Below are positions 20,480 to 63,943 of a stretch of 64,000 bases of DNA, piece by piece. Source of the DNA: Mesorhizobium sp. B2-3-12 (GTDB lineage Bacteria > Pseudomonadota > Alphaproteobacteria > Rhizobiales > Rhizobiaceae); NCBI RefSeq assembly GCF_006442205.1, contig NZ_VFVR01000003.1, positions 496,001 through 560,000 on the forward strand, given 5' to 3'. The stretch's first letter is position 1; each line of letters begins with the position of its first letter. A program made the position numbers and the translations under genes. A model generated the notes under the pieces. That model made no database searches. It worked only from the letters and a program-made list of their open reading frames with translations, and was not told the origin of the DNA.

Positions 20480-20938
20480 CTAGCGGAGCTGCCGGATGGC
20501 TTCGCCCGCCACCATGGCCACGGAAAGAGCGACGTTGATGCTGCGCGCGTTGGGCTGCATCGGGATGGTCAGCCGCGCGTCCGCCGCCTGATGGACTGGA
20601 TCCGGCACGCCCGCGGATTCGCGGCCAAACAGCAGGATGTCGCGGTCGGTGAAGCTGAAGTCGGTGTAGGGGATCGCGGCCTTGGTCGACAGCAGCACCA
20701 GCCGGTCCGCGCGGGCCTTGCGCCACGCCTCGAAGGCGTTCCAGTCGACATGCCGGGTCAGGGCGGCCATTTCGAGGTAGTCCATGCCGGCACGTTTCAG
20801 CGCCTTGTCGGAAAGCGGAAAGCCGGCAGGCTCGATGATGTCGACGCCAAGGCCGAGGCACGCGGCGAAGCGCAGGATTGTCCCGGTATTGCCGGCAATG
20901 TCCGGCTGGTAGAGCGCGATGCGGAGACCATTGTTCAC
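20480..20938 (-). CDS. trmL: tRNA (cytidine/uridine-34-2'-O)-methyltransferase TrmL
   Basis: 152-residue SPOUT methyltransferase that methylates the wobble ribose of certain tRNA-Leu. Motifs: ALYQPDIAGNTGTILRFAA, then LLFGRESAGVP and IPMQPNARSINVALSVA, which form the knotted SAM site. Full length and normal start at 20938. Any transcript from the SoxR-type promoter reading right would be antisense to it. Confidence 0.93.
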   Translation of the reverse strand: MNNGLRIALYQPDIAGNTGTILRFAACLGLGVDIIEPAGFPLSDKALKRAGMDYLEMAALTRHVDWNAFEAWRKARADRLVLLSTKAAIPYTDFSFTDRDILLFGRESAGVPDPVHQAADARLTIPMQPNARSINVALSVAMVAGEAIRQLR

Positions 20939-21078
20939 TTCCGCGTCCTTCTAATAAGTGGCAGATCGGCCACAGCGGCTCCCTGGTTTTGGAAATTCCT
21001 GGACCCGCGGGTGGCCATTTTTTTCGAAGTCGGGTATACGACCAGCATTGTCAACCCGAACCGAAGGAGGGGTAATTC

Positions 21079-21156
21079 ATGATGACCATGCACATCCAGC
21101 GCCCCACCCGTGGGCTCAACTGCGCCCTGGCGGTTTCGGTACGACGTTTCTCCTGA
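21079..21156 (+). CDS. Candidate 25-residue leader peptide upstream of ABC exporters
   Basis: ATG at 21079 follows an almost ideal ribosome site (AAGGAGGGG, 6-base spacer). The peptide begins MMTMHIQRPTRG and ends ALAVSVRRFS, then TGA. An Arg-Arg-Phe near its end and its place before ABC exporter genes suggest a regulatory leader rather than a functional protein. The segment GGTTTCGG inside it can pair with CCGAAACC at about 21185-21193. A possible -10 (GTATAC) lies at 21034-21039. Confidence 0.55.
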   Translation: MMTMHIQRPTRGLNCALAVSVRRFS

Positions 21157-21221
21157 TCTTTTAGGCACTTCCGCACCGATCTCCGCCGAAACCATACCCT
21201 GGTCTTCGAAGGAATCCTGCG

Positions 21222-21743
21222 ATGTTTTTCAAGCTGCCGAAGGGGCCGATGGCCCCGTCCCAACGCGTTCCGACTGATCCGCCGCCGATCCCGCGGCACG
21301 ATGTCGATCATCCTTTCTATCTCTATTTCAACACGGAGGACGGACCGATGTTCGATCCCTACAGAATACCGGGCTCGAGGAGCCTGCATATCCACCGGCT
21401 GCCGACCTGGGCGCTGTTGATCGGCGAGACCTATTCGTCGGCGGTCCATGCCGAAGTGCGCCGCCGTCCGCATCGCGGCATGCTGCCGGACGTCGATTTC
21501 TCGCGCGCGGTCCCCGACCCGGGCCGGCCTTCGCTGGTGCGCCGCATCATCCGGCTGATCCGGCCGGGAGCGAAAAGCCGGACCGGTGGTGCCGTGTCGT
21601 CAGGATCGACAAAGATGCCTGTCGGCGAAAAGCCGGCGAACTCCTATATAGCGCGAAGCAGGGCCGACGCTCCGGATGATTCCGGAGCGTCGGCCCTCGA
21701 TGCCATGCGGTCCGAGGACTTCGTACGCCGCCAAGCCGCGTAA
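21222..21743 (+). CDS. Unrecognised ORF between leader peptide and ABC exporters
   Basis: 173 codons with AAGGA ahead of ATG 21222. The predicted protein is Pro/Arg-rich, has no membrane segment, signal peptide or known motif, and ends with a low-complexity tail. Near its 3' end (21660-21697) the DNA forms a perfect 17-bp hairpin, unusual for coding sequence. It may be a small regulator, a rapidly evolving protein, or not translated beyond the hairpin. It ends 29 bases before the first exporter gene. Confidence 0.4.
   Translation: MFFKLPKGPMAPSQRVPTDPPPIPRHDVDHPFYLYFNTEDGPMFDPYRIPGSRSLHIHRLPTWALLIGETYSSAVHAEVRRRPHRGMLPDVDFSRAVPDPGRPSLVRRIIRLIRPGAKSRTGGAVSSGSTKMPVGEKPANSYIARSRADAPDDSGASALDAMRSEDFVRRQAA
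21660..21697. other. Perfect 17-bp hairpin before the ABC exporter genes
   Basis: AGGGCCGACGCTCCGGA pairs exactly with TCCGGAGCGTCGGCCCT around a TGAT loop. No T-run follows, so it is more likely an RNA stability, pausing or attenuation structure than a simple terminator. It lies 76 bases upstream of the exporter start. Confidence 0.8.
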
Positions 21744-21772
21744 GCGGAAAACAGATTTTACAGGCATGACCT

Positions 21773-23659
21773 ATGTTGTTGTTTAGCTGGTTTGAAAGAA
21801 GGCTCGATCCGTTCCCGGCAGCGGAGCCGGTCGAGCCGCCCAGGACGCTGGTTGCCTTCTGCCTGCATTATACGCGCGGGGCATGGTCCTATATTCTTGT
21901 CGATGCGGTGCTGGTCGCGGCCATCGCCATCGCGGAAGTGTGGATGTTCGGCTTCCTCGGCCGCATCGTCGACTGGCTGTCGGGCCAGAACCGCGAGACC
22001 TTCCTGCAGACGGAAGGCTGGAAGCTCGCCGGCATGGCCTTCATCGTATTGTTCGCGCTGCCCGGCACGGTTTGGCTGCATTCGCTGCTCAACCAGCAGA
22101 CGCTGATGGGCAATTACCCCATGCGCATCCGCTGGCAGGTGCACCGCTACCTGCTCAAGCAATCGATGAGCTTCTACCAGGACGAGTTCGCCGGCCGCAT
22201 CGCCACCAAGCTGATGCAGACCGCGCTTGCCGTGCGCGAATGCGTCATCAAGGTGATCGACGTCCTGAACTACGTCGTCGTCTATTTCCTCGGCATGCTG
22301 TTGATTGTCGGTTCGGCCGACTGGCGGCTGGCGGCGCCGCTTGGCGTCTGGATGGTCGGATATATCCTGTTGCTGCGCTTCTTCATCCCGCGACTGGGCA
22401 AGGTCGGCGAGGAGCAGGCGAATGCGCGCTCGACCATGACCGGCCGCGTCGTCGACAGCTACACCAACATCCAGACGGTCAAGCTGTTTTCCCATTCACG
22501 CCGCGAGGCCGCCTTCGCCAGGGAAGGCATGATGGGCTTCCTCGATACGGTCTACCGGTCGATGCGGCTGGTGACGCTGCTGTTCGGCTCGCTCTACATA
22601 CTGAACGCGCTGCTGCTGTTCTCGGTCACCGCCATCTCGCTGTGGCTGTGGATGGGGCAAGTGGTGACGATCGGTGCGGTCGCCGTGGTCATCGGTCTGG
22701 TGCTCCGGATGTGGGGCATGTCGCAGTGGATCATGTGGGAAATGTCGAGCCTGTTCGAGAATATCGGCACGGTGCAGGACGGCATTGCCTCGATTTCGTT
22801 GCCGCGCCTGGTCGAGGACAGGCCGGATGCCAAGGAGATCATCGTTTCCAAAGGCGATATCCGCTTCGAGGATATCCGCTTCCATTACGGCAAGCAGAAA
22901 GGCGTCATCGAAAACCTGTCGCTGGTGGTCAAGCCGGGCGAGAAGGTCGGCATTGTCGGCCGCTCGGGCGCCGGCAAGTCGACGCTGGTCAATCTCTTGC
23001 TGCGCTTCTACGACCTGGAAAGCGGCCGGATCCTGATCGACGGCCAGGAGATCGCCGGCGTGAAACAGGATTCGCTGCGCGCGCAGATCGGGATGGTCAC
23101 GCAGGATACCTCGCTGCTGCATCGTTCGGTGCGCGAAAATATCCTCTATGGCCGGCCCGATGCCACCGACGAGATGCTGCTCGAGGCGGCGCGGCGGGCC
23201 GAGGCGATGGATTTCATATCAGGACTTTCGGACCATCATGGACGCAAGGGGTTCGACGCCTATGTCGGCGACCGCGGCGTCAAACTGTCCGGCGGTCAAC
23301 GGCAACGCATCGCCATTGCTCGCGTTATGTTGAAGGACGCGCCCATACTTATCCTTGACGAGGCGACGTCGGCGCTCGATTCCGAGGCGGAAGCCGCCAT
23401 CCAGGAGAACCTCTACAAGCTCATGCAAGGCAAGACCGTCATCGCCATCGCGCACCGGCTGTCGACCATCGCGGCGATGGACAGGCTCGTCGTGATGGAC
23501 CAGGGTCGCGTCATCGAGGAGGGCTCGCACGAGGAACTGGTCGCCAGAGGCGGACTCTACGCGCAGCTCTGGCAGCGCCAGTCGGGTGGGTTCCTGCTCG
23601 ATGACGTCCCAGTCGAAGCCGCCAATGACGCAATAGCAAAGGGGCAAGCCGCAGAATGA
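21773..23659 (+). CDS. ABC exporter half-transporter (fused permease-ATPase) 1
   Basis: 628 residues. The six-helix type IV exporter membrane domain covers about residues 30-330. The ATPase has Walker A GRSGAGKST at 396-404, LSGGQ at 505-509, ILILDE at 525-530 and an IAHRLSTI H-loop. It resembles MsbA/multidrug-type exporters of rhizobia, but the substrate cannot be told. It is followed after 10 bases by a paralogue, suggesting a heterodimer or a duplicated pair. Confidence 0.9.
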   Translation: MLLFSWFERRLDPFPAAEPVEPPRTLVAFCLHYTRGAWSYILVDAVLVAAIAIAEVWMFGFLGRIVDWLSGQNRETFLQTEGWKLAGMAFIVLFALPGTVWLHSLLNQQTLMGNYPMRIRWQVHRYLLKQSMSFYQDEFAGRIATKLMQTALAVRECVIKVIDVLNYVVVYFLGMLLIVGSADWRLAAPLGVWMVGYILLLRFFIPRLGKVGEEQANARSTMTGRVVDSYTNIQTVKLFSHSRREAAFAREGMMGFLDTVYRSMRLVTLLFGSLYILNALLLFSVTAISLWLWMGQVVTIGAVAVVIGLVLRMWGMSQWIMWEMSSLFENIGTVQDGIASISLPRLVEDRPDAKEIIVSKGDIRFEDIRFHYGKQKGVIENLSLVVKPGEKVGIVGRSGAGKSTLVNLLLRFYDLESGRILIDGQEIAGVKQDSLRAQIGMVTQDTSLLHRSVRENILYGRPDATDEMLLEAARRAEAMDFISGLSDHHGRKGFDAYVGDRGVKLSGGQRQRIAIARVMLKDAPILILDEATSALDSEAEAAIQENLYKLMQGKTVIAIAHRLSTIAAMDRLVVMDQGRVIEEGSHEELVARGGLYAQLWQRQSGGFLLDDVPVEAANDAIAKGQAAE

Positions 23660-23669
23660 TGGCCGCCGC

Positions 23670-25553
<1,884 letters not shown>

Positions 25554-62205: not shown

Positions 62206-63732
62206 TCAGCCACCTGCTCCAGCCACCTCGCGGAAGAAACTCTCAGGATCCTCGACCTCGGTCAGCCTGCGCTTCTCGATCAGCCAGAAACGGTTGCCGA
62301 TGGCGCGGATGAAGGAGCGATCGTGCGAGGCGAGCAGGCAGCTTGCCTGGTGCTTCAGCAACTCCTCCTCCAGTGCTTCCTGGCCGTCTATGTCGAGATG
62401 GTTGGTCGGCTCGTCGAGCAGGTAGAAGTTGGGATTGGCGAGCCTCAGCGCCAGCATCATCAGCCGGGCCTTCTGGCCGCCCGACAGCACGCCGATCTTT
62501 TTCTCCTGCATCTCGATGACCACGCCGGCGCCGGCGAGCAGCGAGCGGGCGCGCTGTTCGCCGACATCGTAGCGGCGCGAGACCATGGCCAGCGGCGTGT
62601 CGTCGCCGCTGATGCCGGACAGCGCCTGGTCGCTATAGCCGAGCACGGTCGACGGCGTCACCTTCACATTGCGCACCGTGTCCGGTTCGAGGATGGCGTT
62701 GCGGATCAAGGTGACGAAGCGCGACTTGCCGACGCCGTTGCGGCCGAGCAGCACGATGCGATCGCCCTGGCAGATGTGGCGTTTGCCGGTCCGAAACAGC
62801 AGCGTGCCGTCGGGCGTTTCCACCGTGGCGTCGTCGAGCGTGATCAGCACCTTGGCGTGCGTGCCGCGATTGGCGAGTTTGATCGCCCCCGCCGATCTTT
62901 CACGATGCGCGGGATTGGCGGCCTCTTCGAGCTTTTCCGCCCGCTGGTTGAGCTGCTTGGTCTTGACCGTCAGGAGGTCGCTGCCGGAATTGATGCCGAT
63001 ATTGTTGAGCTTGGCGGCCTGCCGCCGCAATTGCTGCGCCACCTTCATGTCGCGCTGGAATTTTCGTTCGGTCGAGGCGTCGACCTCGTCCAGCGCATCC
63101 CTGGCACGCGAGTAGGGCAGCGAAAACACCGGCGACTGTTCCGGGCGCAGGAACAGCGTGCGGTTGGTGGTTGCGTCGAGGAAGGCCCGGTCGTGGCTGG
63201 CGATAACGACGGGCACCTCGCGTGGCAGCGCGTTGAGCCAGGTTTCCAACTGGCTGATGCGGGCGAGGTCGAGATGGTTGGTCGGCTCGTCGAGCAGCAG
63301 CACATCGGGATCGGTGACCCAGACGCGGGCGATCAGCGCCAGCCGCTGCCAGCCGCCGCTCAGCGCCTGCATCCGCCGCTCGCGCATCGCCTCGGGCACA
63401 TCGAGCGAATCCAGCACCACGTCGACGCGCCACGTCTCGCTGTCGGCCTGTTCCGGCGGCAAGGCGTCGGCCACCACCTCATAAAAAGTACGGCCGAACA
63501 GGGCAGGGGCTACGGACTGTTCGACATGGCCGACACGCAAGCCGCGCGTGCGGGTGATGTCGCCTGTTGTCGGCTCCAGCTCGCCGGTCAGGCATTTCAG
63601 CAAGGTCGACTTGCCGCGGCCGTTGGCGGCAACGATGCCGAGCCGGTCGCCGCCGCCGATGGTGAGGTCGAGATTGGAGAAGAGCGGCGCACTCATGGTG
63701 ACGCCAAGGGATTTGAGGCTGATCAGGGCCAT
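62206..63732 (-). CDS. ABC-F family ATPase (translation factor or resistance type)
   Basis: 508 residues, two ATPase domains, no membrane segments. Walker A 1 is AANGRGKST, the second is GRNGVGKSR (the last Thr is Arg). LSGGW and LSGGQ signatures and two LLDEPTNHLD Walker B motifs are present. The linker (about 190-285) is helical and basic, as in ribosome-binding ABC-F proteins. ABC-F members act on ribosome A or E sites, and several protect against antibiotics. A leader ORF lies upstream. Confidence 0.92.
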   Translation of the reverse strand: MALISLKSLGVTMSAPLFSNLDLTIGGGDRLGIVAANGRGKSTLLKCLTGELEPTTGDITRTRGLRVGHVEQSVAPALFGRTFYEVVADALPPEQADSETWRVDVVLDSLDVPEAMRERRMQALSGGWQRLALIARVWVTDPDVLLLDEPTNHLDLARISQLETWLNALPREVPVVIASHDRAFLDATTNRTLFLRPEQSPVFSLPYSRARDALDEVDASTERKFQRDMKVAQQLRRQAAKLNNIGINSGSDLLTVKTKQLNQRAEKLEEAANPAHRERSAGAIKLANRGTHAKVLITLDDATVETPDGTLLFRTGKRHICQGDRIVLLGRNGVGKSRFVTLIRNAILEPDTVRNVKVTPSTVLGYSDQALSGISGDDTPLAMVSRRYDVGEQRARSLLAGAGVVIEMQEKKIGVLSGGQKARLMMLALRLANPNFYLLDEPTNHLDIDGQEALEEELLKHQASCLLASHDRSFIRAIGNRFWLIEKRRLTEVEDPESFFREVAGAGG

Positions 63733-63871
63733 TTTCGATTTCTCTGGTCTGTCCGGGAAGTCCGGCTCAATGCACTTTGACGGTGCGCGTGCCGGCCATC
63801 AGGCTCAGGATTGCGCACCACGAAGGGCAGACCAAAAAATCGAAGCGGGAAAAAACCCGGACCGTCCCTGG

Positions 63872-63943
63872 TCAGCCCTGCAAGCAAGCTCGCAGGGCAG
63901 AAATCGGGCCACGCTGACGATGGTGACGAAAAAACGTAAACAC
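63872..63943 (-). CDS. Candidate 23-residue leader peptide upstream of ABC-F gene
   Basis: GTG at 63943 follows AAAGGAGGG with a 5-6 base spacer. The peptide begins MFTFFRHHRQRG and ends RACLQG, then TGA. Its last codons overlap a hairpin, GCCCTGC / GCAGGGC with inner AGC/GCT (63875-63898). T6 runs follow at about 63850-63855 and 63834-63839. The ABC-F start lies 139 bases after the leader stop. Confidence 0.6.
   Translation of the reverse strand: MFTFFRHHRQRGPISALRACLQG
63875..63898 (-). other. Hairpin overlapping the leader peptide end
   Basis: GCCCTGC and GCAGGGC are exact inverted arms with AGC/GCT pairing inside. A second weak stem (CGGG/CCCG around T6) follows. Together they could serve as an attenuator, although neither is a perfect terminator. 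Confidence 0.6.

Follow-up and report, generated by a model that had tools for sequence, protein, structure and literature searches.

The window analysed here is a 64,000-nucleotide stretch of the genome of Mesorhizobium sp. B2-3-12. It carries a tandem pair of ABC exporter genes preceded by a short leader ORF and a longer middle ORF, with a tRNA methyltransferase-like gene divergent from them and a second leader, upstream of an ABC-F gene, near its far end. The closest PDB relatives of the first exporter, ABC1, are plant ABCB proteins and P-glycoprotein-type exporters. An earlier note on this DNA had called a 25-codon ORF with a ribosome-binding site and a 17-bp hairpin ahead of the exporters; both are present, and the hairpin falls inside the 173-residue middle ORF, near its end. 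The features are as follows.

20480–20938, minus strand: divergent trmL-like gene (tRNA 2′-O-methyltransferase); SpoU_methylase in Pfam, with TrmL models the top NCBIfam matches, below cut-off
21034–21039, plus strand: −10-like box GTATAC, with a putative transcript start a few bases downstream
21055–21064, plus strand: segment 1 (CCCGAACCGA), which could pair with a post-leader segment (P1)
21064–21072, plus strand: leader Shine–Dalgarno sequence AAGGAGGGG, which could pair with C-rich leader codons (P0)
21079–21156, plus strand: leader ORF, 25 codons plus TGA, reading MMTMHIQRPTRGLNCALAVSVRRFS
21125–21224, plus strand: match to covariance model R1, 70.2 bits, E = 6.3e-17; the window is one of the 55 rows of R1
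21129–21140, plus strand: left arm of P2, GGCGG TT TCGGT
21172–21221, plus strand: P3 hairpin over the Shine–Dalgarno core GGA (21211–21213) of the middle ORF, from the fold of the window segment and family covariation
21175–21187, plus strand: right arm of P2, ACCGA TCT CCGCC, overlapping the left arm of P3 (21172–21184)
21222–21743, plus strand: middle ORF (putative relay), 173 residues, no known family, fast evolving
21660–21697, plus strand: perfect 17-bp hairpin (21660–21676 with 21681–21697) inside the 3′ end of the middle ORF
21773–23659, plus strand: ABC1, ABC-B-type exporter (membrane and ATPase parts), 628 residues; Pfam ABC_membrane and ABC_tran
23670–25553, plus strand: ABC2, second exporter, 627 residues; Pfam ABC_membrane and ABC_tran
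63872–63943, minus strand: ABC-F leader VFTFFRHHRQRGPISALRACLQG with a GTG start, 5′ of the ABC-F ORF (62206–63798, minus strand)

The trmL-like gene lies beside the leader in all 30 Mesorhizobium loci read and in 74 of 80 loci from the rest of the family, and the middle ORF and ABC1 follow the leader in 29 of the 30 genus loci (the other, L031, ends with its contig). The leader is present once in the host genome (6.2 Mb, 35 contigs). At E ≤ 10 its peptide is matched in 73 of the 81 genomes of the genus, and the leader ORF is not a chance one, because 65 of the 81 match over at least 24 of the 25 residues at E < 0.1; two of these 65 (G006 and G051) have a TGA inside the leader. On sequence, then, the ORF is conserved and precedes the exporters, rather than varying freely or standing before unrelated genes only, as the earlier note had said it would if its reading were wrong. 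The DNA for the leader ending AVSVRRFS is near-constant in the genus, synonymous positions included, and the leader ending therefore overlaps an RNA element; the Mesorhizobium leader runs through the segment concerned in P2 (segment 2) and stops after it. Over the first 17 codons of 23 distinct genus leaders, variable sites number 9, 8 and 9 by codon position, with no third-position bias, and therefore the act of translation, rather than the peptide sequence, seems to be preserved.

The family sample comprised 297 genomes in 109 genera, 279 of which have an ABC1 match at E ≤ 1e-220. From the ABC1 matches listed, 80 loci outside Mesorhizobium were chosen by hand and the 1.5 kb upstream of each was fetched. 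A strict rule (a short ORF with a ribosome-binding site whose end adjoins the motif) was passed by 56 of these loci and eight leaders were added by eye, giving 64 family leaders (within L066–L145). Their typical layout is GAACCGA-nGGAGG-ATG, 14–26 codons (most commonly 18), a stop, and then CGGCGG-n-TTCGGTTCGACG. The stop is TGA in 57 of the 64 and lies directly 5′ of the P2 arm in 53; in Mesorhizobium the left arm of P2 falls within the 3′-terminal part of the leader, and in most other loci it comes just past the stop. Next starts were sought 65–135 nt past the leader stop, and in the 53 loci where a script called one the two are separated by 88–103 nt (s.d. 3.8). Of the 64 loci, 47 have an N-TATA box 41–43 nt upstream of the leader ATG and one more has it at 54 nt, whereas neither of two control windows contains the box in any of the 64. 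A frame-blind test, in which the ribosome-binding site fixed the start and the RNA motif the end, could use the 55 of 80 loci that had both: the distance from start to P2 is a multiple of three in 49 of the 55, a stop codon touches the P2 motif in 49, and frame 0 is open to its end in all 55, compared with 13 and 39 for the other frames. These results point to a short ORF with its own ribosome-binding site that is apparently translated.

The leader peptide is not conserved between genera, and the sequences are mostly unlike one another. A peptide search over the 109 family genera reached E < 1e-7 in g1 and g86 only, and a DNA pattern derived from Mesorhizobium had hits in 5 of 397 genomes of the order, each belonging to that genus, because the leader differs elsewhere. 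The peptide pattern proposed in the earlier note as a search handle fails beyond the nearest genera; the RNA and the position of the stop codon are conserved instead. Named genomes contain the exact motif 12 times; 11 copies adjoin ABC1 (in Mesorhizobium, Pseudaminobacter, Aquamicrobium and assemblies named as Rhizobiaceae or alphaproteobacterial), and the twelfth (L153), inside another coding sequence with no adjoining exporter, is unrelated. Arginine makes up 13.4% of leader residues, and Arg/Lys-x-Arg/Lys occurs in 25 of the 62 distinct leaders of L066–L145 compared with 13.5 (s.d. 2.9) on shuffling, a result that is not a probability because the leaders are related. RNA constraint may cause this Arg-rich run, since it overlaps codons able to pair with the Shine–Dalgarno sequence, and the leader of the window itself lacks Arg/Lys-x-Arg/Lys. 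In three loci (L092, L110 and L127) the leader and the following ORF are duplicated in tandem before ABC1, and L066 and L067 each have two adjacent R1 matches.

We analysed the RNA on an alignment, A3, of 50 of the 64 family leaders and five others, 14 leaders having been omitted as unalignable or near-duplicates. RNAalifold on the full alignment predicted no pairs, because the leader is hard to align, and helices were drawn from single folds, chiefly that of L071, and then tested on the alignment core. P2 joins the segment at the leader stop to another lying about 50 nt further downstream; on A3, 93.5% of its 493 cells are paired compared with 18.7–70.6% when it is slid, although a structure drawn from one of the tested sequences tends to beat slid controls for that alone. 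Its covariation score of 0.084 is reached by 1 of 500 shuffles and its three double-change cells on A3 by 27 of 500, and on a 65-row core alignment it has seven double-change cells compared with 1.5 on shuffling, with 0 of 300 shuffles reaching seven; shuffle counts for P2 and P3 alike are not probabilities, because the sequences are related. P3 pairs the downstream segment with the Shine–Dalgarno sequence of the next ORF, with 72.9% of cells paired compared with 23–50% when slid, and has 39 double-change cells compared with 24.1 in shuffles; neither this number nor its covariation score is reached by any of 500 shuffles. One pair, the Shine–Dalgarno pair, accounts for 23 of the 39, reading UA in 18 family loci, AU in 16, GC in 5, GU in 2 and otherwise in 13; the inner and outer stems of P3 show no excess over shuffles.

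P2 and P3 are mutually exclusive because they share one arm, and P2 is an alternative pairing able to free the Shine–Dalgarno sequence. The pairing proposed earlier from this window alone, GGTTTCGG (21132–21139) with CCGAAACC (21186–21193), does consist of exact complements, but the one conserved in the family is the overlapping GGCGG..TCGGT/ACCGA..CCGCC of P2. Upstream, GAACCGA/TCGGTTC (P1) is conserved in the family, with 81% of cells paired, and is broken by one base in Mesorhizobium; P1 as a covarying helix is not supported, showing no excess over shuffles. For P0, the pairing of the leader Shine–Dalgarno sequence with leader codons, the mean z over 55 loci is −1.2 (below −1 in 60%), with −15.6 kcal/mol for own compared with −14.1 kcal/mol for swapped sequences.

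The covariance model R1 was used to find the element in genomes. In the host genome it scores at most 20.2 bits away from the leader, compared with 70.2 bits there. At E ≤ 1e-5 it matches 85 of 297 family genomes in 34 of 109 genera, with scores of 36–111 bits and three genomes matched twice. Among the 80 fetched family loci 58 match at this threshold (50 included in the model and eight outside it), and for these the match position was checked against ABC1; eight genus genomes outside the model score 63–94 bits. Four family loci with a plain leader (L093, L107, L108 and L111) reach just 19–22 bits. Outside the family, 40 of 386 genomes of the order sample match at E ≤ 0.01, with a maximum of 30 bits, which is more than the rough E-values predict; we take these weak matches as chance, but a few could be real because the four plain-leader family loci score so low. 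Related exporters occur at E ≤ 1e-200 in 80 of 140 order genomes, five of them in the family. We examined 26 of these exporter loci, one in the family (L213) and 25 outside it, from 25 of the 75 matched outside-family genomes. R1 does not precede the exporter in any of the 25 outside-family loci; L210 has one 14-bit match behind the exporter on the opposite strand. On this comparison, the switch looks younger than the exporters. In L207 and L209, two of the loci, which come from another family of the order, ABC1 is preceded at about 250 nt by a shared but unrelated short ORF, MRIRFGCYPPGIPRMRAA.

By these comparisons the leader is a real, conserved leader-ORF RNA element, present in about a third of sampled Rhizobiaceae genera (in the wide sense) and tied to one exporter locus. 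Rfam has no match in the window at gathering score, and none at E ≤ 1 in E-value mode for eight family loci. Applied to 20939–21780 it gives six matches at E ≤ 5, none of which reaches the gathering score or lies before 21534, the best being sX6 (26.5 of 40 bits) at 21597–21714, over the 17-bp hairpin. The proposal that the ABC-F gene in the same window shares the leader design is not supported: R1 reaches at most 11 bits elsewhere in the window and has no match at the ABC-F leader at E ≤ 10, and the same element at that gene is rejected. The ABC-F leader VFTFFRHHRQRGPISALRACLQG is conserved in its own right, with hits at E ≤ 0.1 in 73 of the 81 genomes of the genus.

Ensemble folding of 55 loci gave a mean probability for P2 of 0.29 in free RNA, 0.48 with a ribosome at the leader start, 0.42 with it in mid-leader and, by construction, 0.00 with it at the stop; the corresponding means for P3 are 0.37, 0.25, 0.32 and 0.44. 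On average, both helices shift in the direction expected of a switch. A ribosome at the start raises P2 in 23 of the 55 loci and lowers it in eight. In the window P2 goes from 0.33 in free RNA to 0.11 with the ribosome at the start and 0.64 with it in mid-leader, and in L071, the source of the helix drawings, it stays at 0.15 or less. With the leader omitted, the energy of P2 is below that of P3 in 48 of 55 loci and within 4 kcal/mol in 23, in a comparison that penalises P3 by forcing it into the alignment register. Accessibility of the next ORF's Shine–Dalgarno sequence is flat across ribosome positions (0.39, 0.40, 0.40 and 0.39 over 53 loci), and we rejected it as a readout of the switch. 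Taken as a model, a switch is plausible.

Neither Pfam nor NCBIfam matches the middle ORF at E ≤ 0.1, and in that sense it remains unrecognised, as first described, but its median dN/dS of 0.41, compared with 0.12 for ABC1 (27 of 30 genus loci), indicates that within the genus it is evolving as weakly constrained coding sequence. Across the family its length and sequence are highly variable. The 17-bp hairpin in the window is 100% complementary with a 4-nt loop; at least 15 perfect base pairs, with compensating changes, occur in 21 of 30 genus loci and 6–13 in eight, one locus being too short. The ORF from the next start ends 0–200 nt before ABC1 in 46 of 64 family loci and overlaps ABC1 in five. 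In the other 13 it ends more than 200 nt before ABC1, so that a universal relay ORF is not borne out; three of these 13 are tandem modules and three have TTG or GTG starts that look wrongly called. In L071, middle-ORF homology carries on in another frame. We infer that the middle ORF is a relay ORF, though not a universal one.

GC-rich hairpins whose loop contains TGA or TAG, beginning about 44–58 nt before ABC1, occur in L069, L071, L075, L077, L082 and L117, and in several of them the loop stop is the stop codon of the middle ORF. As a general feature, a hairpin with the middle-ORF stop in its loop is rejected: it reaches at least 9 bp in L069, L077 and L082 and not in most of 28. In genus g72 (L136, L138, L142 and L143) the middle ORF is missing, and the exporter's own Shine–Dalgarno sequence is enclosed in a hairpin when three of the four loci are folded freely, the fold of the other having stopped short of it. 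The g72 leader variant reads MNVLMLTRLPGVVGHRLA in three loci, with a close relative in L142, and this genus also has a terminator-like stem with a T-rich stretch and a repeat able to hide the ABC1 Shine–Dalgarno sequence.

Translation attenuation of ermC and cat works through 1:2, 2:3 and 3:4 pairings and a hidden Shine–Dalgarno sequence, with the stall set by the leader peptide or codon. The present locus is like these systems in its pairing scheme and hidden Shine–Dalgarno sequence and unlike them in having no conserved peptide. Comparison with three further systems draws on excerpts of the cited accounts. In E. coli toiL–topAI, stalling in an upstream ORF in response to several antibiotic classes opens the next ORF, with Rho termination when it is untranslated (PMC12121999). 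An upstream ORF and a hidden Shine–Dalgarno sequence of the next ORF are common to both, whereas host, downstream genes and sequence differ; the toiL ORF itself pairs with the next ribosome-binding site, a task that falls here to a separate segment, and the excerpts on toiL–topAI mention no relay ORF (PMC12121999). In B. subtilis bmrB–bmrCD, antibiotics induce through leader translation and alternative stem–loops (PMC4191407). Here too a leader ORF lies 5′ of two tandem ABC exporter genes, with the middle ORF between, and there are alternative stem–loops; by contrast, an intrinsic terminator inside bmrB decides transcription in that system (PMC4191407), whereas in the window sequence, as read, neither P3 nor the 17-bp hairpin is followed by a U-tract, and what is hidden is a Shine–Dalgarno sequence. 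The duf1127 upstream ORF of S. meliloti, likewise rhizobial, responds to tetracycline; its RNA matters rather than its peptide, and its ribosome-binding site pairs with C-rich early codons, a pairing to which P0 may correspond; it differs in its gene and in a probable Rho site inside the upstream ORF, and no pair like P2 and P3 is described in the excerpts (PMC12218461). The part consulted of an S. meliloti Ribo-seq paper mentions small ORFs in ABC transporter operons and does not name the present leader, and we found no description of it in searches of the open text of PubMed Central.

A conserved, apparently translated leader ORF that precedes tandem ABC exporters and is coupled to alternative RNA pairings has the appearance of a ribosome-sensing switch, the central suggestion of the earlier note. 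Comparison of loci supports conservation of the neighbourhood, the reading frame, the stop position, P2, P3 and the link to the exporter locus; we infer the switch itself, its direction, its signal, the role of the relay and the use of P1. We lean towards a cis-acting translation attenuator of the toiL/erm kind, with a fast-evolving relay ORF that would often pass its output on to the exporters. Transcription from the promoter box, some 42 nt upstream, would yield an mRNA opening with the short ORF (14–26 codons in the family). A ribosome that has reached the leader end would cover segment 2, and P3 would then form and silence the next ORF. In ribosome-free RNA, segment 2 may be captured by segment 1 through P1, and P3 would form again. 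A ribosome that stalls or slows early or midway in the leader would leave segment 2 free to form P2, opening P3 and permitting translation of the middle ORF, which would melt the hairpin near its end and carry ribosomes towards ABC1, or keep Rho off. The signal would be general translation stress, such as ribosome-targeting antibiotics, because no peptide is conserved. Several results speak against this model: the flat Shine–Dalgarno accessibility, the drop in P2 with a ribosome at the leader start in the window and its low probability in L071, the few double-change cells of P2 on A3, the lack of excess covariation in P1 and in the inner and outer P3 stems, a Mesorhizobium leader that stops past segment 2 and, for the relay, the 13 loci in which the middle ORF ends well short of ABC1 and the change of frame in L071. 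A fuller version of this attenuator may be entertained tentatively: a two-stage relay in which a leader ORF with no conserved peptide would sense general ribosome stress by its stop position, an RNA switch would open the fast-evolving second ORF, whose chief function would be its own translation, and that translation would melt a hairpin and so turn on exporters of the P-glycoprotein type. Some genera have tandem copies of the module, and one genus lacks the middle ORF and has a hairpin over the exporter's own ribosome-binding site.

Rho-dependent transcription attenuation, in which the leader and the following segment would act mainly as a Rho loading site exposed or hidden by translation, as has been proposed for the S. 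meliloti duf1127 upstream ORF, and P3 would be secondary, seems to us unlikely. The missing U-tracts agree with it, as does the tendency of the leader Shine–Dalgarno sequence to pair with its own codons, reported in S. meliloti in the excerpts consulted (PMC12218461), and an untranslated middle ORF would presumably expose RNA to Rho. A bare Rho site, however, needs no covariation of P3 exactly at the next ORF's Shine–Dalgarno sequence, and Rho and a translation switch can act jointly, as the excerpts on toiL–topAI describe (PMC12121999). We give still less credence to a constitutive 5′ element that sets the translation rate or stabilises the mRNA with no response to a signal: the flat Shine–Dalgarno accessibility fits it, but without switching it is difficult to account for two exclusive conserved helices and a fixed stop position. 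That the peptide itself is active, either by sequence-specific ribosome arrest in cis or by acting in trans, for which peTrpL is a precedent (PMC10117765, in part), is highly improbable, since the arginine content and the enrichment of Arg/Lys-x-Arg/Lys, an erythromycin stall motif in the excerpts of PMC12121999, are set against leader sequences that differ greatly between genera, the lack of third-position bias within the genus, an Arg-rich run that overlaps Shine–Dalgarno-pairing codons and a window leader without the motif.

Antibiotic-sensing leaders are best known from Gram-positive bacteria, according to the part of PMC12218461 consulted. The translation attenuator proposed here makes a comparative case for such a leader in a large soil- and plant-associated group of Alphaproteobacteria. 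The element is unusual in that the RNA and the stop position are conserved and the peptide is not, and it may therefore report general ribosome traffic. For the exporters, this supplies a defined element and a likely cue, translation stress.
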